A stretch of 64,000 nucleotides of DNA, taken from the NCBI RefSeq assembly GCF_019599465.1, contig NZ_RKLR01000001.1:186001-250000 (forward strand). Direction: 5' to 3'. The notes beneath the pieces were generated by a model. It did not search any database. It had not been told where the DNA came from and worked only from the letters and a program-made list of their open reading frames with translations. The DNA comes from Haloarcula rubra (GTDB taxonomy: Archaea > Halobacteriota > Halobacteria > Halobacteriales > Haloarculaceae). A program made the translations under genes and the position numbers. Positions 18,159 to 28,827 of this stretch are shown here, in pieces. Positions within the stretch are counted from its first letter, which is position 1; every line of letters starts with the position of its first letter.

Positions 18159-18197
18159 GGGGTTGCCCCGCACAGATTCACATGTGAGGTAACGACG

Positions 18198-18722
18198 ATG
18201 TCCTACCAAGCAACCAACCCACTGGCCGACGAGTTCGAGCTCGCGCTGGACGGGCCGTTGACGGCGTACTGGCTGGCGTTCCTGCGAGTGGTCACCGGAT
18301 GGTGGTTCTTCCACGCCGGTGTCACCAAGCTCATTGAGGACGGACTGGCCTTCGGATACGGCCCGGCCTACCTCCAGCAGATGACCGGCACCGCGCTGGG
18401 GCCCATCCCGGTCTGGATGGGGAACAACCTCGCGTGGCTCATCAGGCCGGGCGTCCCGCTGTTCGAGACGCTCATCGGACTGGCCCTGATGGTCGGCGTC
18501 CTGACCCGACTGGCGGCCTTCGGCGGGGTCATCTTCATGACCCTGTTCTGGGTCGGCAACGCGGGCTTCGGACACGGCCTGGTCAACGGCGACCTGATGG
18601 GCCTGCTCCTGTTCGCCACGGTGATGGTCGTCGGTGCCGGCCGGTACTACGGCCTCGACGCCATCCTCGAGAAACTGGAGTTCGTCCAGAAGCGCCCGAA
18701 ACTCCGCTACCTACTCGGTTAA
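18198..18722 (+). CDS. DoxX family membrane protein
   Basis: A 174-residue protein with about four transmembrane helices. The DoxX signature WLAFLRVVTGWWFFHAGVTKL leads helix 1, and later helices contain LFETLIGLALMVGVLTRLAAFGG and the C-terminal VVGAGRYYGLDA. In Acidianus DoxX (with DoxD) is a subunit of thiosulfate:quinone oxidoreductase, but most DoxX-like proteins have unknown or other redox roles. The next gene, 16 bases downstream, encodes a small membrane partner. Both have strong SD sequences. Confidence 0.85.
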   Translation: MSYQATNPLADEFELALDGPLTAYWLAFLRVVTGWWFFHAGVTKLIEDGLAFGYGPAYLQQMTGTALGPIPVWMGNNLAWLIRPGVPLFETLIGLALMVGVLTRLAAFGGVIFMTLFWVGNAGFGHGLVNGDLMGLLLFATVMVVGAGRYYGLDAILEKLEFVQKRPKLRYLLG

Positions 18723-20156: not shown

Positions 20157-20259
20157 CTCGGTGGTCTCAGCCAACAACGTTTCGATGGGATGACACGGTG
20201 ACACACACCCGCCTGCCGGGAGCGATAGCGCAAAGAGTGGCCCGCCCCGTCGTGTGGAC

Positions 20260-20946
20260 ATGGGAACACCGCTGGCGAGTCGCGAGGCACAGGCCGAGGC
20301 AGTCGTCGAGCGCCTCCACGAGGAGTATCCGGACTCGACCATCTCGCTGAACTACTCGAACCGGTTGGAACTGCTCGTCGCCGTCGTCCTCTCGGCACAG
20401 TGTACCGACGAGCGAGTGAACGAAGTCACGGCGGACCTCTTCGAGAAGTACCAGACGCCGGAGGACTACGCCGACGCCAGCGAGGCGGAACTCGCCGACG
20501 ACATCTACGGCATCACGTTCCACAACAACAAGGGTGGCTACCTCAAGGGCATCGGCGAGAAAATCGTCGCCGAACACGACGGCGAGGTGCCCGACGAGAT
20601 GGGCGCGCTGACCGACCTGCCCGGCGTCGGCCGCAAGACGGCCAACGTCGTCCTGCAACACGGCCACGACGTCGTCGAGGGCATCGTCGTCGACACCCAC
20701 GTCCAACGGCTCTCCCGTCGGCTCGGGCTGACGGAAGAAGAACGACCCGAAGCCATCGAACAGGACCTGCTCGACGTGGTGCCCGAGTCGGAGTGGCAGC
20801 AGTTCACCCACCTGCTCATCGACCACGGCCGCGCCGTGTGTGGCGCTCGCTCGGCCGACTGTGGCGAGTGCGTACTGGCCGACATCTGTCCCTCCGAGAA
20901 GGGCGACAGCGACGTGGACCTCGCCTCGGGCGAGCCGTGGGCCTAG
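20260..20946 (+). CDS. nth: Endonuclease III
   Basis: The 228-residue DNA glycosylase/AP lyase removes oxidised pyrimidines. VLSAQCTDERVNEV is the classic N-terminal motif. LPGVGRKTANVVLQHG is the helix-hairpin-helix with the catalytic Lys (GRKTAN), and VDTHVQRLSRRLGL carries the catalytic Asp. CGARSADCGECVLADIC gives the C-x6-C-x2-C-x5-C [4Fe-4S] cluster. I start at ATG 20260; a GTG two codons upstream is possible. Confidence 0.95.
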   Translation: MGTPLASREAQAEAVVERLHEEYPDSTISLNYSNRLELLVAVVLSAQCTDERVNEVTADLFEKYQTPEDYADASEAELADDIYGITFHNNKGGYLKGIGEKIVAEHDGEVPDEMGALTDLPGVGRKTANVVLQHGHDVVEGIVVDTHVQRLSRRLGLTEEERPEAIEQDLLDVVPESEWQQFTHLLIDHGRAVCGARSADCGECVLADICPSEKGDSDVDLASGEPWA

Positions 20947-21577: not shown

Positions 21578-22066
21578 CTACCCACCGACGACGTAGCGCA
21601 GGACGTACCGGGAGACGCCCACGACGTACGCCAGCATCCAGAAGACGACGTAGCCGAACACGCCGATACGGAGGCGCGAGCGCCAGTGGCTCATCTGGTC
21701 GCCGCCGATCTCGTCCAGCAACAGGTCCTCGTCGTAGTCGTTGTACAGGTCGTGTTCGCGTTTGGCCCGGAAGATACGGACGATTCCGGTGCCGCCGAAC
21801 AGCAGGAGGGCGTAGGCCTGCAAGCCGAGGTAGGCGTGGACTGCCGACAACCCGCCCAGTTGCTCGGGAAGTCGTGGCGCCATCCAGAACAGCATCGGCA
21901 CCGTCGTCAGGACGAGTCCGGTGACGACGAACTTCAGGTGGTGCAACAGGACGTCCCACGTGACCGGTTCCGTCTCGATGATGTAGTACGCGCCGTAGAC
22001 GAAACAGGGGAAACTCAGGCTCACCGACACGAGTACGACAGAGGCCACGACGCCGTCCGACACCAT
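21578..22066 (-). CDS. Four-helix membrane protein beside the b6-like complex genes
   Basis: A 162-residue protein with four transmembrane helices (about 4-28, 41-66, 77-100 and 133-157) and a charged cytoplasmic loop (RAKREHDLYNDYDEDLLLDEIGG). Two adjacent histidines at the start of helix 2 (LLHHLKF) and another in helix 3 (VHAYLG) could bind haem, but this is only a possibility. It is divergent from the accessory gene at 22.15 kb and flanks the Rieske/cytochrome b cluster. I know no function. Confidence 0.7.
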   Translation of the reverse strand: MVSDGVVASVVLVSVSLSFPCFVYGAYYIIETEPVTWDVLLHHLKFVVTGLVLTTVPMLFWMAPRLPEQLGGLSAVHAYLGLQAYALLLFGGTGIVRIFRAKREHDLYNDYDEDLLLDEIGGDQMSHWRSRLRIGVFGYVVFWMLAYVVGVSRYVLRYVVGG

Positions 22067-22152
22067 ATCGCGGCGTTAGGACAGGACGCGCTAAAACGTG
22101 CCGGATACGGGAGGTCAGAAGGCGTAAGTCGGAGGAAACCCTACTCTCGACA

Positions 22153-23022
22153 ATGGCAGACTCCGACTCGACGTCGCCCGAGGCGGACGCTGACACGGAC
22201 AGCGACGCCGACCGGTCGCGGCCCGCGCAGGCGGCGAGCGAGGGGCGGGAGACGGACGACCTCGACACCGAGGCGCTCCGCAAACAGGTCGAGGAGAAGT
22301 ACGACTTCGACGACTTCGGTCCGGCCGACATGGCCGAGATGACCGCCGAGGAGTGGGACGTCGCCTTCGACGAGGACTCGTGGATAACCGGCGACGAACT
22401 GCTCGACCGGGTGGCCCGGGACCTCCGAAACCGCGTCTCGACCCGCGACGTCTTCGCCCGCGTGGAGCGCCACCAGAACCCGCCGCGGGTGCTGGCGTAC
22501 TCCGACGAGGGGTACGCCATCGTCTATCCCGACGGGAGTGTCGAGGGCGAGGGGACGGTCCTCCGTGACGTCAAACCGACCGTCGCGCTCTGCTCGATGG
22601 ACTCCTACGACGTGCCCGAGTCGGTGCCCGACAACCCGCTCCCCGAACCCGAAGCCGTCCCCGAGGGCGGCGGCGAACTGGGCAACCGGATGTTGCAGGT
22701 CATCGCCGGGGCCCAACTGCTCGCCGGACTCGGTCTCCTCGCCGGCGGCGTCCTCGCCGTCGCCGGTGTCGTCGGCGGCCCGGGGGCGAACGTCGTCGCC
22801 CTGTTCGTCGCCGGCCTCGCGTTCGTCGGCATCGCGCTCGTACTCTTCTTCACCGTCGCGAACGCGCGACTTTCCGACAAGTTCCGGGCCGAGGAGTACC
22901 GCGACCGACTCAGGGCGGTCGGTCTCGAAGACGGCGAGCGACCCGACTTCGTTCCGGAGCTAACCCCCCAGAACGGAGGGGACGAGACGGAGCGCGACGA
23001 ACCCGACGAAGCCGGGGCGTGA
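22153..23022 (+). CDS. Accessory protein of unknown function, first gene of the b6-like cluster
   Basis: A 289-residue protein. Residues 1-45 are acidic and disordered, 50-165 form a soluble domain (KYDFDDFGPADMAEMTAEEWDV, then a beta-rich part with DEGYAIVYPDGSVEGEGTV), and two helices at about 178-205 and 210-240 cross the membrane; the acidic tail follows. It lies 61 bases before the halocyanin gene on the same strand. Position suggests an assembly or stabilising role for the complex. No cofactor motif is visible. Confidence 0.7.
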   Translation: MADSDSTSPEADADTDSDADRSRPAQAASEGRETDDLDTEALRKQVEEKYDFDDFGPADMAEMTAEEWDVAFDEDSWITGDELLDRVARDLRNRVSTRDVFARVERHQNPPRVLAYSDEGYAIVYPDGSVEGEGTVLRDVKPTVALCSMDSYDVPESVPDNPLPEPEAVPEGGGELGNRMLQVIAGAQLLAGLGLLAGGVLAVAGVVGGPGANVVALFVAGLAFVGIALVLFFTVANARLSDKFRAEEYRDRLRAVGLEDGERPDFVPELTPQNGGDETERDEPDEAGA

Positions 23023-23048
23023 CGGTGCCTGCGGGCGGTATCCGGTGG

Positions 23049-23056
23049 GTTTATAC
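23049..23056 (+). promoter_or_regulatory. TATA box before the halocyanin gene
   Basis: GTTTATAC is centred about 31 bases before ATG 23084, so a transcript with a leader of only a few bases is predicted. This is probably the main promoter of the halocyanin-Rieske-cytochrome b operon. Confidence 0.6.
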
Positions 23057-23083
23057 AAACACAGTCCTGACTTCGGGACGTAC

Positions 23084-23749
23084 ATGAACAGGCGGGAGTT
23101 CGTCCGGACTGCAGGGGGTGCCGCAGGCGCTGCGGCCACCCTCGGCGCCGCCGGCACAGCCGCTGCCCAGGAAGAGGGCGGCGGTGGCGGCGGCCAGACA
23201 GCCCCGGACTACGGCGGCTACCTCGATCAGGTCGGGAACTTCTCCGGCCCCACGAGCACTGTCGACGCGACTGGACAGGACACTGCTACAGTCGAGGTCG
23301 GTGTCAACGCGAACGGCGGGGCCTACGGGTTCGGCCCGCCGGCTATCCACGTCGACAACGGCGCGACCGTCCAGTTCGAGTGGACCGGCAACGGTGGCGG
23401 ACACAACGTCGTCTCCGACGGCGACGGACCGCTGGACTCCGGGTCGCCAGTGGCCTCCTCCGGCGTCAACTACGAACACACGTTCGAGAGCGACGGCATC
23501 TACCCGTACTACTGCGCCCCACACGAGGGGCTCCAGATGAAAGGCGCCATCGTCGTCGGCGAGGAGTTCCCGACCCAGACCATCGGTGGCGGCGGGCCAC
23601 AAGAGGTCAACCCGCACGAAGCAGGGGTGCCGATTCAGCCCCACTACGTCGGCTTCGGTGCCGGGCTGGCGGTCGTCATCCCGCTCGTCTTCACCTTCTT
23701 CCAGTTGAAGTACGGTGAATCACCACACACCAGCGGAGGGAACAACTGA
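23084..23749 (+). CDS. Halocyanin with C-terminal membrane anchor
   Basis: A 221-residue blue copper protein. NRREFVRTAGGAAGAAATLGAAG is a Tat-type signal. The plastocyanin-like domain (about 65-160) has all four copper ligands: His107 (GGGHNVV), Cys144, His147 and Met152 (YYCAPHEGLQMKG). After a linker a single helix (about 187-208) anchors it, facing outward. It is the first gene of the core operon; the next ATG overlaps its stop (ATGA). In place of cytochrome c1 or f, it is the likely electron acceptor of the Rieske protein. Confidence 0.93.
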   Translation: MNRREFVRTAGGAAGAAATLGAAGTAAAQEEGGGGGGQTAPDYGGYLDQVGNFSGPTSTVDATGQDTATVEVGVNANGGAYGFGPPAIHVDNGATVQFEWTGNGGGHNVVSDGDGPLDSGSPVASSGVNYEHTFESDGIYPYYCAPHEGLQMKGAIVVGEEFPTQTIGGGGPQEVNPHEAGVPIQPHYVGFGAGLAVVIPLVFTFFQLKYGESPHTSGGNN

Positions 23750-24168
23750 TGGCGTCCGAAGGCTCCACCTACGGCGACATCCACCGCTACGAACCGCCGC
23801 GAGAGAGCACCGCGGCGGCGGTCGGCATCGTCCTCCTGACGGTCATCCAGGTCGTCCTCGTCGGCCTGTTCACCTACGGGATGCTCACTGGCTGGGCGTC
23901 CGGTATCGGGACGACGCTGACGGTCCGCCTCATCGAGGCCAACATGTTCCTCGGCGGCGTCCTGACCGCCATCTTCCTCGATCTGGCGTTCATCATGCTC
24001 CTCTACCGCAAGGAGTTCCTCCCGGACGTGATGATAGTCAAGAAGCGCCGTCGCAAGTGGGAGGACCTCTACATCCGACAGGAGGACGTCGACGGGAAGA
24101 AGCTCGCGGACGAGGACCAGCTAGTCGAGACAATCAAACGCGCAGTCTACCCCTACTACAAGAAGTAA
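23749..24168 (+). CDS. Two-helix membrane subunit between halocyanin and Rieske genes
   Basis: A 139-residue protein with helices at about 22-46 and 62-86 and a highly charged cytoplasmic tail (VKKRRRKWEDLYIRQEDVDGKK). No redox motif. Translation is coupled to halocyanin by an ATGA overlap, and the Rieske ATG follows the stop by one base, which strongly implies a subunit of the same complex. Family unknown to me outside haloarchaea. Confidence 0.75.
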   Translation: MASEGSTYGDIHRYEPPRESTAAAVGIVLLTVIQVVLVGLFTYGMLTGWASGIGTTLTVRLIEANMFLGGVLTAIFLDLAFIMLLYRKEFLPDVMIVKKRRRKWEDLYIRQEDVDGKKLADEDQLVETIKRAVYPYYKK

Positions 24169-24169
24169 T

Positions 24170-25030
24170 ATGCCACTAGACGAAGACAAGTATCCAGCCG
24201 AGACGGGTCGACGTCGCTTCGTAAAGGGCGTCGTCGGCAGCGCGGCCCTCTCCAGCGTCGGTGTCGGCGGGGCCGCCGCCGTCGACGCGACGACCGACGC
24301 CGCCGGCGAAGGTGGCGGGACGACCACGTTCGTCGGTGTGGAGAACACCGACGGGCCAGCACCGCGCGGGATGCCCATCATCCCCATCGAGATAAACGGC
24401 GGCGAGATATCGGGCCTCTGGCCCGAGTTCGACCCCGAGGCCGGCGTCGCCATCGCACGGGACTTCGGCGGCAGCGGCATCGACTACTCGTCGGCCTGGT
24501 TCCAGTACTGCGGTATCCAGAGTTCGTCGGGTATCTACCCGCAGGCCGAGCGTAACAACACCTTCCTCAACAGCCCCGGCTCCTTCACCTGGCAGGGCGA
24601 GATAGAGCAGGGCGCGCCCCTCACCGTGGACATGTTCGAGGACTACCAGGAGTGGGGCAACGGCATCGGGAAGGCCGGCCTCGGCAAGCCCGCCAGCGCG
24701 AACTGGCGGGACGGCGAGGGCGGCGGCGTTCCGGTCCAGATTCTCCGCTCCGTCGAAATCGAGAAGATGGCCAACGGCGAGGGGAAGTACTCGGAACTGC
24801 CCAACAGCATCAAGAACTTCGTCTCCGAGGCCACGCAGGACGGGTTCATCGCCTGGCTCAACAAGTGTACGCACTTCTGCTGTGTCCCCGGCTTCAAGAC
24901 ACAGGAGGGGAGCGTGAACTTCGGCGCCGAGGACCGAATCTACTGCCAGTGCCACCAGTCGGTGTACAACCCGTTCAGCCCGGTGCAAAAGCAGTTCGTG
25001 GCGCTCCCACGCCCGCCACAGGAGGGGTGA
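24170..25030 (+). CDS. Rieske iron-sulfur protein of the b6-like complex
   Basis: A 286-residue protein that passes electrons from quinol to the mobile acceptor. RRRFVKGVVGSAALSS near residue 14 is a Tat signal that also serves as an anchor. Cluster ligands are Cys233 and His235 (CTHFCC) and Cys259 and His262 (CQCH), with Cys238 and Cys261 placed for the usual disulfide. The domain between 60 and 230 is longer than in short Rieske proteins. The start lies one base after the upstream stop, and the cytochrome b gene follows after three bases. Confidence 0.92.
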   Translation: MPLDEDKYPAETGRRRFVKGVVGSAALSSVGVGGAAAVDATTDAAGEGGGTTTFVGVENTDGPAPRGMPIIPIEINGGEISGLWPEFDPEAGVAIARDFGGSGIDYSSAWFQYCGIQSSSGIYPQAERNNTFLNSPGSFTWQGEIEQGAPLTVDMFEDYQEWGNGIGKAGLGKPASANWRDGEGGGVPVQILRSVEIEKMANGEGKYSELPNSIKNFVSEATQDGFIAWLNKCTHFCCVPGFKTQEGSVNFGAEDRIYCQCHQSVYNPFSPVQKQFVALPRPPQEG

Positions 25031-25033
25031 CCC

Positions 25034-25837
25034 ATGAGCTTAGAACGCAAAGACGAACACGACCACAAAGGCTGGATGGAATCGCGCGAGCTGTCGCCAC
25101 TCGAATCGATATACCTGACCACGCTCATCTGGCTCGACAAGCGTCTGCGTGTCGTCGACTACCTCGAAATCCTCGAAGACCTGTACTACAAGGTCAACAT
25201 GCAGATGCCGAAGAGCCACACCGAGCAGTACAACCTCGACAACAAGTTCTGGTACTGGTACCCGCTGTACGCACTCGGGTCGTTCTCGACTATCGCGTAC
25301 GTCGTCGCCGCCATCTCCGGCGCGTTGCTCGGGTTCTACTACGCCCCGGCCGCGGCGGCCGCCGACGGCTCCCCGACCGTGGCGTACGACTCGGTGATGC
25401 TCATCATGGGGCAGTTGAACCTCGGCTACTTCCTGCGTTCGGTCCACCGCTGGGCCGCGCAGGTCATGGTCGCGGCGGTGTTCCTCCACATGCTCCGTGT
25501 CTACTTCACGGGCGCGTACAAGGAACCCCGCGAACTCAACTGGCTCATCGGTATCATCCTCATCTCGCTGACGCTCGTCTTCGGGTACACGGGGTACCTG
25601 CTCCCGTGGAGCCAGCTTTCCTTCTGGGCCGGACAGATCGGCGTCGAGATGTCGCTGTCCATTCCGCTCATCGGCGAGTGGGTCGCACAGCTGATGTTCG
25701 GGGGGTTCACCCTCTCACAGTCCACGTTGCAACGGATGTACATCCTGCACGTGTTCTTCCTCCCGTTCATCACGACGGCGCTCATCGCCGTCCACATCGG
25801 CATCGTCTGGATGCAGGGCATCGCGGAACCACACTGA
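25034..25837 (+). CDS. Cytochrome b6-like subunit (N-terminal half of cytochrome b)
   Basis: A 267-residue protein with four core helices that carries both b haems. Haem ligands are His138 and His152 (RSVHRW, FLHMLR) and His239 and His254 (LHVFFLP, VHIGIVW). Fourteen residues separate the second pair, as in cytochrome b6 of b6f complexes. GYTGYLLPWSQLSFWAGQIG is the quinol-site signature. The first 70 residues form a hydrophilic extension that is not part of typical cytochrome b6. It is four bases upstream of the C-terminal half gene. Confidence 0.92.
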   Translation: MSLERKDEHDHKGWMESRELSPLESIYLTTLIWLDKRLRVVDYLEILEDLYYKVNMQMPKSHTEQYNLDNKFWYWYPLYALGSFSTIAYVVAAISGALLGFYYAPAAAAADGSPTVAYDSVMLIMGQLNLGYFLRSVHRWAAQVMVAAVFLHMLRVYFTGAYKEPRELNWLIGIILISLTLVFGYTGYLLPWSQLSFWAGQIGVEMSLSIPLIGEWVAQLMFGGFTLSQSTLQRMYILHVFFLPFITTALIAVHIGIVWMQGIAEPH

Positions 25838-25841
25838 TACA

Positions 25842-26615
25842 ATGAGCGACAACGACACCAACGACGACGAGGTTCGCACAGACGGCTCGGGCGGCGGCGG
25901 TATCGTCGCACCGGACGACGAGACGCCGACGTGGTCCGAGCGCAAGCAGCGGTCGCAGGGCCTCTCGCGGCTCACTTACGAGTACTTCGAGCGGGCCCGC
26001 CGCGAGGATCAGGACCTGCGCCAGCAGTCCGACTACGTCGAGCGCGACGTGCTGGCGTTCCCGGCGTGGCCCCACGAGATGATTCGGAATCTGGCCCTGA
26101 CGAGCTTCTTCGTCGGGATGATCCTGTTCCTCTCGGCGACGCTCCCGCCGGAGATGCCGAACCCGGCGAACTCCGCCGTGACGCCGGCCATCATCCTGCC
26201 GGACTGGTACCTCTACTGGTCGTTCGGCCTGCTCAAGCTCGGCCCGCTGAACCCCAACCTCGCTATCCTCGGCGGGGCGAAACTGATGGCGGACCGGACC
26301 TACGGTGTGCTGGCGAACGTCGTCGTCGTCGGCTTCGTCGCCATCGTCCCGTTCATCAACAAGGGGTCGGCGCGCCGTCCCGTCGAGCAGCCGTTCTGGG
26401 CCGCCGTCGGCATGGCCGGCGTCATATTCAGCCTGACCATCGCCGCGCTGTCCATCAAGAACCTCATCCCGATGGACTCCCACCTGCTGTTCGACCTGAC
26501 GTTCCTCGTCCCCATCGTCGCCGGGACCATCACCTACGCGGTGCTGAAGACGATGCGCGAGGGCTACATGTTCGACCTCAACCGCCGGTACTACCGGCTC
26601 CGACCGCCGAAGTAA
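25842..26615 (+). CDS. Cytochrome b C-terminal half (subunit IV-like)
   Basis: A 257-residue protein with an acidic N-terminal tail (1-70) and then helices matching E to G of cytochrome b. Residues 120-123 read PDWY, the variant of the PEWY quinol-oxidation motif seen in low-potential (menaquinone-type) complexes; haloarchaea use menaquinones. The extra C-terminal helices extend past the three of subunit IV. The following 135 bases are T-rich on the coding strand (GTCTTTCTCCCGCTTTCG) and may end transcription. Confidence 0.9.
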   Translation: MSDNDTNDDEVRTDGSGGGGIVAPDDETPTWSERKQRSQGLSRLTYEYFERARREDQDLRQQSDYVERDVLAFPAWPHEMIRNLALTSFFVGMILFLSATLPPEMPNPANSAVTPAIILPDWYLYWSFGLLKLGPLNPNLAILGGAKLMADRTYGVLANVVVVGFVAIVPFINKGSARRPVEQPFWAAVGMAGVIFSLTIAALSIKNLIPMDSHLLFDLTFLVPIVAGTITYAVLKTMREGYMFDLNRRYYRLRPPK

Positions 26616-26753
26616 GGCGCCGTCTTTCTCCCGCTTTCGTCGTCGTGTCGCCGATTCCCCCAGCGGTCGCTGTCCCTTCGTTCGTAGCGACGACGGGACC
26701 CGACACGTCCGCGTCTCGCCGCAGTAAAGTATCTCGCGCCCCTAGCTGTCGTG

Positions 26754-27104
26754 ATGACCGAGGACCAGTCGGGCGTGCCGACGGAGGCCGAGGCCACGGA
26801 GGAGGCGGGCGCGCCGGACGGCGGACGCTCTCGTGACGTCGTGGTCCCCCTCCGCGTCTACAAGACCGTCACGGTGTTCTCGACGCTCATCGCGGTGTTC
26901 AGCGTCGTGGGCGGGTTCATCCTCGTCGACGTCGCGACCAACAGAGCGTCGGCGCCGGCCTCGGAGATAGACGTCCCGGTGGCCATCGCCGGCGTCGGCC
27001 TCATCCTCATCGGGGCCGTCGTGTACGCCTTTTCGACGCGATTCCGCACCGAGGAGATGGGAAAGTCTAAAGACGACGCTGACGAACTGTCCGATAATGG
27101 CTGA
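26754..27104 (+). CDS. Two-helix membrane protein in the b6-like cluster
   Basis: A 116-residue protein with an acidic tail (1-32) and helices at about 39-60 and 75-98. TATA-like CAGTAAAGTATC (26721-26732) lies 27 bases before ATG 26754, which makes this start better than the GTG at 26751 and suggests its own promoter. Its end overlaps the next start by eight bases. Function unknown. Confidence 0.7.
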   Translation: MTEDQSGVPTEAEATEEAGAPDGGRSRDVVVPLRVYKTVTVFSTLIAVFSVVGGFILVDVATNRASAPASEIDVPVAIAGVGLILIGAVVYAFSTRFRTEEMGKSKDDADELSDNG

Positions 27105-27369
27105 CGAGTTCATCAAAGGGTTCGGCGCGCTGATGGTCGGCGGACTCGGCTGGATGACCATCGCTGGATGGTACCGGACACCGAGCTTCGAGGGCGCACA
27201 GCTCATCGGCGAACTGCCACCGGCCGAGTCGCGAACCGTCTTCGACAGCATGGCCATCGCGATGATGGACGTGTTCTTCTGGTTCGCCGTCTTCGGCGCG
27301 CTCACGTTCTGGGTACTCATCCCCCTCGTCGGTGAGCTTCGCGAGTACCTCGACGAGCGGTCCGCCTGA
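27097..27369 (+). CDS. Small two-helix membrane protein in the b6-like cluster
   Basis: A 90-residue protein with helices near 9-26 and 52-76. The loop between is WYRTPSFEGAQLIGELPPAESRTVFDS. The start overlaps the previous gene (ATGGCTGA), so the two are translationally coupled. It is convergent with the four-helix gene at 27.5 kb. No family known to me. Confidence 0.7.
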   Translation: MADEFIKGFGALMVGGLGWMTIAGWYRTPSFEGAQLIGELPPAESRTVFDSMAIAMMDVFFWFAVFGALTFWVLIPLVGELREYLDERSA

Positions 27370-27525
27370 GCGACCGGTCGGTCTCTTTCTGCTTCGAGTC
27401 ACGCGCTCCGTCTCGTAGCGACGGGTGCGCTCGGCTTCGGCCAGCGTGCAGCGAGACGTGTCTGCTCGGACACGAACGAGGCCACGGCGAGAGGTAGCGA
27501 AGACGGAAAAACGACGACGGCCCGC

Positions 27526-27987
27526 TTAGACGATAGCGGACCAGGGGCCCTTGATGACCCAGAAGAGGCTCTGGTAGCCGGCGTACATGAAGACGACCAT
27601 CGCGGCGACGAGTGCGCCCTTCGGTCGTTCGAGGGCGAGGTCACGGCGCGCTTCGACTTTCCGGGACTCGAACTCGAAGAAGTCGGTGATGACCAACCCG
27701 AGGACGAGCACCGAGAGGACCATCCCGCCGTGGTGAGCGAGGGTCATGTAGTAGAACGACGTGACGACCAACAGGACGTTGCTCGCGACGTGGACCGGAT
27801 GCCGGCTGATGGCTTCGGCCCCACCGTCGTCGTACTGGGTAGTGTAGCGCCTGTGTGCCACCATACGCGTCAGGAAGTTGCCAACCACCAGCGCCAGGAG
27901 GAGGTACTCGACGACGAGCACGTCCCCCGGACCGGTGGCCCCCATGATGGTGTCCAGTGGCCCGAAGAGGGTTACGGATGGCTGCAT
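27526..27987 (-). CDS. Four-helix membrane protein closing the b6-like cluster
   Basis: A 153-residue protein with four helices (about 22-42, 68-86, 88-106 and 127-148). MVAHRRYTTQYDD and SRHPVHVASN are histidine-containing loops beside helices. FYYMTLAHHGGMVLSV places two more histidines in a helix. I start at ATG 27987; a TTG two codons upstream is unlikely. The 156 bases before its stop, shared with the convergent operon end, show no gene. Function unknown, location suggests a link with the complex. Confidence 0.7.
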   Translation of the reverse strand: MQPSVTLFGPLDTIMGATGPGDVLVVEYLLLALVVGNFLTRMVAHRRYTTQYDDGGAEAISRHPVHVASNVLLVVTSFYYMTLAHHGGMVLSVLVLGLVITDFFEFESRKVEARRDLALERPKGALVAAMVVFMYAGYQSLFWVIKGPWSAIV

Positions 27988-28038: not shown

Positions 28039-28758
28039 TCAGGCGAAGCGGGACCGACTCTCGTCGACGACGGCGACGCGCATCGGCCCGCTCCGCGAGA
28101 GGGTGACGGTCTGTCCACAGGCGACGGTGCCCTCGTGGACACCGTCCACGTACAGCGCGACGGTGGCTTCGTCGCGCTCGACGGAGACGGTGAGGTCGTC
28201 GAGCGGCAGCACCCAGTGGTCGGGGTTGGTCGCGAACGGGGCGATGGGCGCGGCGACGCCGACCCCGGCCACGGGGGCCAGCACGGGGCCGCCGACGCGG
28301 CGGGCGTACTCCGGCGACCCGGCGGGGGTCGCGACGGTGATACCGTCGGCGCGGAACTGTCCCACCGAATCGCTCGGCGTCTCGACGGCGTACTCCGAGA
28401 TGCGAGCGGCGTCAGCGGTGACGGCGGTCACGTCCCACACCGCCCGCCCGACGGTGTCGCCGGCGGTCGTGACCGCCACCACCGGGTGTCGGTCGACGTG
28501 GGCGTCGTCCAGCCCCCGTACGGCCGCCAGCACGGCGTCCCGTGTCACCGACCGGACGCCGCGTCCGGCGTCGACGGGGAGCAAGAGCGGGTCGTGGTCG
28601 CTCGCACCGACTCCGGCGACGGCCGTCTGACCGACGGCGACGACTCGCTCGGTCGTCGGGGGGTCCGCCGGTGAGCCGACATCGACGGAGACGCCGGCGT
28701 CGCGGAGTCGGTCGGCCACGCTCTCGTCGCCGACGACACCGAGCGCGCTGTCGCTCAT
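28039..28758 (-). CDS. NAD kinase-like protein lacking the catalytic motif
   Basis: A 239-residue relative of ATP-NAD kinase. The C-terminal beta domain is clear: RADGITVATPAGSPEYARRVGGPVLAP at 136-162 matches the NAD-binding segment (DGxxxATPTGSTAY...GGP). The GGDGT phosphate loop is missing; the equivalent place reads VAVGQTAVAG (40-49). The NE motif is also gone (RAVWDVTAV). Kinase activity is therefore unlikely; NAD(P) binding or regulation is possible. It begins 70 bases upstream of the geranylgeranyl reductase stop. Confidence 0.75.
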   Translation of the reverse strand: MSDSALGVVGDESVADRLRDAGVSVDVGSPADPPTTERVVAVGQTAVAGVGASDHDPLLLPVDAGRGVRSVTRDAVLAAVRGLDDAHVDRHPVVAVTTAGDTVGRAVWDVTAVTADAARISEYAVETPSDSVGQFRADGITVATPAGSPEYARRVGGPVLAPVAGVGVAAPIAPFATNPDHWVLPLDDLTVSVERDEATVALYVDGVHEGTVACGQTVTLSRSGPMRVAVVDESRSRFA

Positions 28759-28827
28759 TGTCGGACGGTTCGGGCGGCCGGAGAAAAAGTTGCCGCACTG
28801 GGCCACGGCGTCGCCGGGCGGCCGCGG

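Follow-up and report, generated by a model that had tools for sequence, protein, structure and literature searches.

A haloarchaeal gene cluster probably encoding a b6-type complex III with a membrane-anchored halocyanin and six co-distributed DUF proteins

Ten adjacent genes in a Haloarcula genome probably encode complex III of haloarchaea, a menaquinol:halocyanin oxidoreductase of the b6 type in which DUF7318 would be a structural subunit resembling part of the actinobacterial Rieske protein QcrA, with five further DUF proteins functionally tied to the enzyme. The genes span positions 21578 to 27987 of the window (the whole 64,000-nucleotide stretch of DNA analyzed), where all ten open reading frames were confirmed at the coordinates given by an earlier note made from the sequence alone. 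The source genome is 4.67 Mb, and its PetB shares 99% identity with the Haloarcula pellucida protein. The genes are, in order:

21578..22066, minus strand: DUF7321 (PF24007), oriented divergently from the cluster; a membrane protein whose model is a four-helix bundle (Pfam)
22153..23022, plus strand: DUF7319 (PF24003), N-terminal soluble region followed by two transmembrane (TM) helices, with a VANARLSD motif conserved after TM2 (Pfam)
23084..23749, plus strand: cluster halocyanin, with a Tat-like signal (MNRREFV), a type-1 copper site (CAPHEGLQM) and a C-terminal TM anchor
23749..24168, plus strand: DUF7318 (PF24002), two-TM hairpin similar to the Sec-inserted hairpin at the N terminus of QcrA, the Rieske subunit of Actinobacteria
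24170..25030, plus strand: Rieske [2Fe-2S] protein (PetA), with a twin-arginine signal/anchor and CTHFCC and CQCHQS boxes
25034..25837, plus strand: PetB, cytochrome b6-type N-terminal half, with invariant His pairs 138/152 and 239/254 and Ala at the c(i)-heme Cys site of b6
25842..26615, plus strand: PetD, C-terminal half of the split cytochrome b, with a PDWY Qo motif
26754..27104, plus strand: DUF7315 (PF23997), two-TM protein
27097..27369, plus strand: DUF7314 (PF23996), small membrane protein whose gene shares 8 bp with that of DUF7315
27526..27987, minus strand: DUF7313 (PF23995), membrane protein in convergent orientation to the cluster, scored with three hydrophobic segments

The halocyanin reading frame reaches upstream to a GTG at 23045, and its likely start is the ATG at 23084. 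Its stop overlaps the DUF7318 start by 1 base, and the gaps from DUF7318 through Rieske and PetB to PetD are 1, 3, and 4 bp, so that the earlier description of these genes as coupled by overlaps holds loosely up to PetD, but a 138-bp gap then precedes DUF7315. DUF7321 and DUF7313 lie on the strand opposite to the other cluster genes and are therefore neighbors rather than members of the same transcript. A sigma-70 promoter scan of the locus was uninformative, as expected for an archaeon. Of 58 long haloarchaeal loci, 53 have an endonuclease III gene, nth (window 20254-20946, plus strand), near the cluster, and 48 have an NAD-kinase-C-like gene (28039-28806, minus strand), which sits beside DUF7313 and could be a further cluster neighbor. 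An upstream DoxX/DoxD-family membrane protein (18183-18722, plus strand) recurs in only 4.

Profile searches identified each of the redox proteins named in the earlier note. The halocyanin scored above cutoff with both Copper-bind and TIGR03102 halo_cynanin (157.9 bits against a cutoff of 93.8 for the latter). The Rieske protein is too divergent to reach the Pfam Rieske cutoff but matches TIGR01416, and its two Cys-His boxes (CTHFCC or CSHFCC, followed by CQCHQS or CPCHQS) are present in 72 of 73 hits. PetB and PetD belong to Pfam Cytochrome_B and Cytochrom_B_C, respectively. The best PDB relatives of PetB are cytochromes b6, and the four heme ligands of this split cytochrome b (H138/H152 and H239/H254, with b6-like spacing of the second pair) are invariant in the alignment. 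PetB also carries a conserved N-terminal extension of about 75 residues, and the position of b6 Cys35, which would bind the c(i)/c' heme, is occupied by Ala, Thr, or Ser in all 80 sequences. The six remaining proteins matched Pfam DUF7321, DUF7319, DUF7318, DUF7315, DUF7314, and DUF7313 far above gathering score (E values from 7e-33 to 1e-95). The earlier statement that six proteins lack a known function thus stands for families whose function is unassigned; the families were already catalogued, and DUF7318 now has a lead in the QcrA hairpin.

The reported lack of a cytochrome c1 or f at the cluster was borne out when the ten proteins were read, since none contains a CxxCH c-heme motif and a halocyanin fills the slot in all 80 loci compared. 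These cluster halocyanins have a C-terminal TM segment in 80/80 loci, the copper-ligand motif C..PH..M in 78/80, and a Tat-like signal, scored by a simple pattern, in 57/80.

The 80 named loci, which represent many haloarchaeal genera, came from a scan with PetB and were then searched with profiles of all ten proteins. Gene order, and strand for most genes, was recovered in nearly all of those with long enough contigs, as the earlier note had proposed checking, and the recurrence of this order across so many genera, in about 80 loci, argues that the cluster is not a chance arrangement. The strand of DUF7313 varies among loci, and in Haloferax, Halogeometricum, Haloplanus, Halobellus, and Halegenticoccus the Rieske gene is missing from the cluster, leaving DUF7318 abutting PetB.

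Co-distribution was surveyed in 116 genomes of the class, each at least 90% complete. PetB, Rieske, DUF7318, DUF7315, DUF7314, and DUF7313 were each found in 83 genomes, and these were the identical 83. DUF7321 and DUF7319 were present in 82, both being absent only from G021 among the genomes with PetB, and in none of the 116 did the DUFs occur without PetB. Three families (f1, f2, and f3) each mix presence and absence of the gene set, which implies that it switched state as a block at least three times. Such co-absence is weaker than it appears, because a single deletion can remove linked genes together, and unlinked copies that are retained are therefore more telling.

Unlinked cases were judged by eye from coordinates. 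The Rieske gene is distant from PetB, or lies on a separate contig, in 45 genomes, namely all 44 of the Haloferax-type family f4 and G021. DUF7313 lies at least 65 kb from PetB in seven genomes (G063, G109, G026, G088, G045, G069, and G073) and 30 to 60 kb away in three (G054, G047, and G075). A few further genomes have it on a separate contig, and among these G044, G097, and possibly G008 may reflect assembly breaks. In total DUF7313 is unlinked in at least 10 genomes and always retained, the DUF7315-DUF7314 pair has moved to another contig in G075, and no unlinked cluster gene was lost in these genomes. Scattering of the accessory genes, which the earlier note had named as grounds for abandoning its proposal, thus does occur in some genomes, but the genes never appear without PetB, and PetB appears without DUF7321 and DUF7319 only once. 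That fidelity, together with the retention of unlinked copies, makes it very improbable that the DUFs are functionally unrelated bystanders held by linkage in a frozen neighborhood, as nth (53/58 long loci) and the NAD-kinase-like gene (48/58) may be, both of them nearby without an obvious link to respiration.

Two side observations emerged from the survey. G106, G102, G016, G051, G084, G056, G100, G109, G012, and G003 carry a second Rieske paralogue outside the cluster, at about 50% identity (partial in G003). An apparent second DUF7318 in G063 was unsupported, with nothing found at L092.

DUF7318 is conserved nearly as strongly as PetB, with YGxIHRYEP near its start and LYRKEFLPDVMxVKKRRRKWEDLY after the second helix. 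The window protein gave a weak match to the QcrA model of Actinobacteria (E = 0.002; its residues 29-104 align with model positions 28-99), and all 29 of 29 diverse family members matched that model (NF050121; best E = 1.4e-5), compared with 1 of 25 (E = 0.09) and 0 of 25 for two small-membrane families from the same cluster used as controls. Pfam QcrA_N (PF19297) was matched by 18 of the 29 (best E = 0.0052), with none shown above gathering score. When DUF7318 and the hairpins described below were combined in one profile, its best match in the PDB was QcrA of C. glutamicum (E = 0.026), with YRKEFLPDVMIVKKR aligned to YVKKFIPEEIAVQRR.

Short TM hairpins are prone to spurious profile matches, and DUF7318 might instead be a generic two-TM protein whose resemblance to QcrA is driven by composition. 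All of its matches fall below the curated cutoffs of the QcrA and QcrA_N models, a profile built from DUF7318 alone did not retrieve QcrA from the PDB, and neither the nar hairpins nor the G311 hairpin, taken alone, matched the NCBIfam QcrA model. Set against these points, 29/29 members match compared with 1/50 controls, the combined profile ranks QcrA first in the PDB, and a hairpin adjoining Rieske recurs in other clusters, so we regard a chance resemblance as unlikely and the link between DUF7318 and QcrA as probable, short of proven.

Part of this evidence comes from hairpins beside other Rieske genes. Weak second matches to DUF7318 in several genomes traced to the nitrate reductase (nar) cluster, where a hairpin protein is followed by Rieske and then by a fused cytochrome b, and profile-profile comparison (hhalign) of DUF7318 with these nar hairpins gave 92% probability (E = 6e-7). 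The same system in the window's own genome (L093) shares the order of hairpin gene, Rieske, and cytochrome b, but differs in its fused cytochrome b, longer hairpin protein, adjacent nitrate reductase, and lack of a halocyanin in that order. Outside the class but within the phylum, a 73%-complete genome, G311, encodes a DUF7318 member (E = 2.8e-10) directly 5' of Rieske in the order monoheme cytochrome c, hairpin, Rieske, PetB, PetD (L087, G311:C117). An archaeal-type shikimate kinase on this contig argues against bacterial contamination. The G311 PetB is the closest outgroup found, at about 50% identity, and keeps the N-terminal extension along with a b6-type Cys (FYCLGG) that is absent in haloarchaea. 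The G311 PetD bears a C-terminal [4Fe-4S] dicluster ferredoxin-like domain, and nth adjoins this related cluster as well (L087:2242-2970, minus strand).

The G311 cytochrome c is anchored at its C terminus, the same architecture as that of the cluster halocyanin in the same gene position. An anchored cytochrome c in the slot of the halocyanin suggests that the halocyanin is probably an anchored acceptor replacing cytochrome c1/f, a comparison that rests on this one 73%-complete genome.

In Actinobacteria, QcrA has three TM segments, of which TMD1-2 are inserted by Sec, followed by a twin-arginine motif and then TMD3 and the Rieske domain, which depend on Tat (PMC5449189). The haloarchaeal Rieske protein begins with its own twin-arginine signal, RRRFVKGVVGS, and outside family f4 the hairpin gene precedes this RR-motif Rieske gene, so that a two-TM hairpin ahead of a Tat-dependent Rieske domain is found in trans. 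Haloarchaea thus seem to encode QcrA as two genes split near the Sec/Tat boundary, and either the fused or the split state may be ancestral. The f4 genomes, where Rieske has left the cluster and DUF7318 still lies by PetB, count against this reading.

Fewer leads were obtained for the other five DUF proteins. The DUF7321 model (pLDDT 87) is a four-helix membrane bundle that retrieved only generic four-helix bundles in structure searches, with Z scores of at most 12.3 (rmsd 2.8 over 124 aligned residues), in the range common for helical bundles. A shared bis-His heme in DUF7321 was considered and is unlikely, because the conserved residues H43 and H77 sit close to the N termini of successive antiparallel helices and hence on opposite sides of the membrane. 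The DUF7319 model (pLDDT 81) combines a soluble region with a hairpin of TM helices, and its structure search gave no convincing match, the soluble domain being barely covered. Sequence-profile searches of solved structures returned no significant relative for DUF7318, DUF7321, or DUF7319, and profile comparison detected no relatedness between DUF7321 and DUF7313 or between DUF7315 and DUF7314. DUF7321 with DUF7319, both absent from G021, and DUF7315 with DUF7314, which moved together in G075, form two likely submodules. G021 (L094) is a small 1.9-Mb haloarchaeal genome with halocyanin, DUF7318, petBD, DUF7315, and DUF7314 in order.

We propose from these distributions that the five proteins belong functionally to the complex, as either supernumerary subunits or dedicated assembly factors. 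A broader alternative makes all six DUFs mainly assembly or maturation factors, acting in Rieske insertion or in heme b or copper loading, rather than subunits of the mature complex. The opposite strands of DUF7321 and DUF7313, the frequent unlinking of DUF7313, and the persistence of PetB without DUF7321 and DUF7319 in G021 would fit such roles. For DUF7318, however, a core motif about as conserved as PetB, a match to a structural part of QcrA, and similar hairpins adjoining Rieske in two other clusters point the other way, and these are small proteins without an enzyme-like domain; as an account of the whole set, this alternative appears unlikely.

The sequence itself shows the split cytochrome b, the Rieske protein, and a halocyanin whose exported copper domain is tethered by its C-terminal anchor. 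In the preferred reading, a complex III with DUF7318 as a structural subunit, menaquinol would be oxidized at the Qo site of PetB/PetD, one electron passing through hemes bL and bH and the other through Rieske to the anchored halocyanin. The halocyanin, in the role of cytochrome f/c1, would then deliver electrons to a terminal oxidase or a mobile halocyanin. Operation of a Q cycle, the partner of the acceptor, and the status of individual proteins as subunits are here predicted from the known biochemistry of bc complexes. DUF7318 would most likely supply, from a separate gene, the N-terminal helix pair of a Rieske subunit of the QcrA type, with the hairpin inserted by Sec and the Rieske protein by Tat. 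A stronger version, which we advance tentatively and consider somewhat less likely to be right than wrong, is that these genes define a distinct class of complex III in which an anchored copper protein replaced c1/f in place, the Rieske subunit was split into a Sec hairpin (DUF7318) and a Tat Rieske protein, and at least three more membrane subunits, specific to the lineage, became obligatory.

The cluster itself is not claimed as new, and parts of it may be shown in a 2012 study on the phylogeny of haloarchaeal Rieske/cytb enzymes. A haloarchaeal petABD complex III has been described in Haloferax volcanii (HVO_2620/HVO_0842/HVO_0841; PMC8305020), and halocyanin as its likely acceptor is already published (PMC8305020, PMC3403918). 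The earlier suggestion of new subunits or assembly factors for a copper-protein-dependent b6 complex is therefore upheld in the strict tie of six genes to a b6-type, probably copper-protein-dependent complex, but not in the novelty of the complex. The papers searched contain no mention of any of the six DUFs and no description of the resemblance of DUF7318 to QcrA, the strict co-distribution of all six, or the exchange of cytochrome c and halocyanin in one slot. Haloarchaeal complex III has not been matched to any purified enzyme; the bc cytochrome purified from Natronomonas, with subunits of only 14 and 18 kDa, is thought to be something else (PMC8305020). The present result provides a concrete ten-gene parts list, makes DUF7318 testable as a Rieske partner, and suggests why a cytochrome c1/f need not be sought in this complex, which bears on the "haloarchaea paradox," the quest for a cytochrome c not evident from sequence (PMC4429474).

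Among known systems, the petABD complex of Haloferax is the same complex, with a b6-like split cytochrome b, a Rieske protein, and halocyanin suggested as acceptor. The location of petA (HVO_2620) away from HVO_0841/0842 agrees with the unlinking of Rieske from petBD in Haloferax loci, and neither the anchored halocyanin of the cluster nor the six DUF genes are discussed in the petABD passages of that source (PMC8305020). Cytochrome b6f of cyanobacteria and chloroplasts shares the split cytochrome b, the b6-type spacing of the second heme His pair (239/254), and the closest PDB relatives of PetB, whereas the haloarchaeal cluster lacks cytochrome f and the c(i)-heme Cys, extends PetB by about 75 residues, and has different small subunits. 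In the actinobacterial bcc complex (C. glutamicum, 7q21 and 7qhm; PMC8795186, PMC5449189), the TM1/TM2 hairpin of QcrA resembles DUF7318, and the Tat motif stands ahead of TM3 and the Rieske domain, an arrangement also seen in the separate haloarchaeal Rieske protein. QcrA is one fused three-TM protein in Actinobacteria and two genes in haloarchaea, and the acceptor is a diheme QcrC in the former and probably halocyanin in the latter. Haloarchaea may provide a natural case in which the QcrA targeted by both Sec and Tat is divided between two genes.
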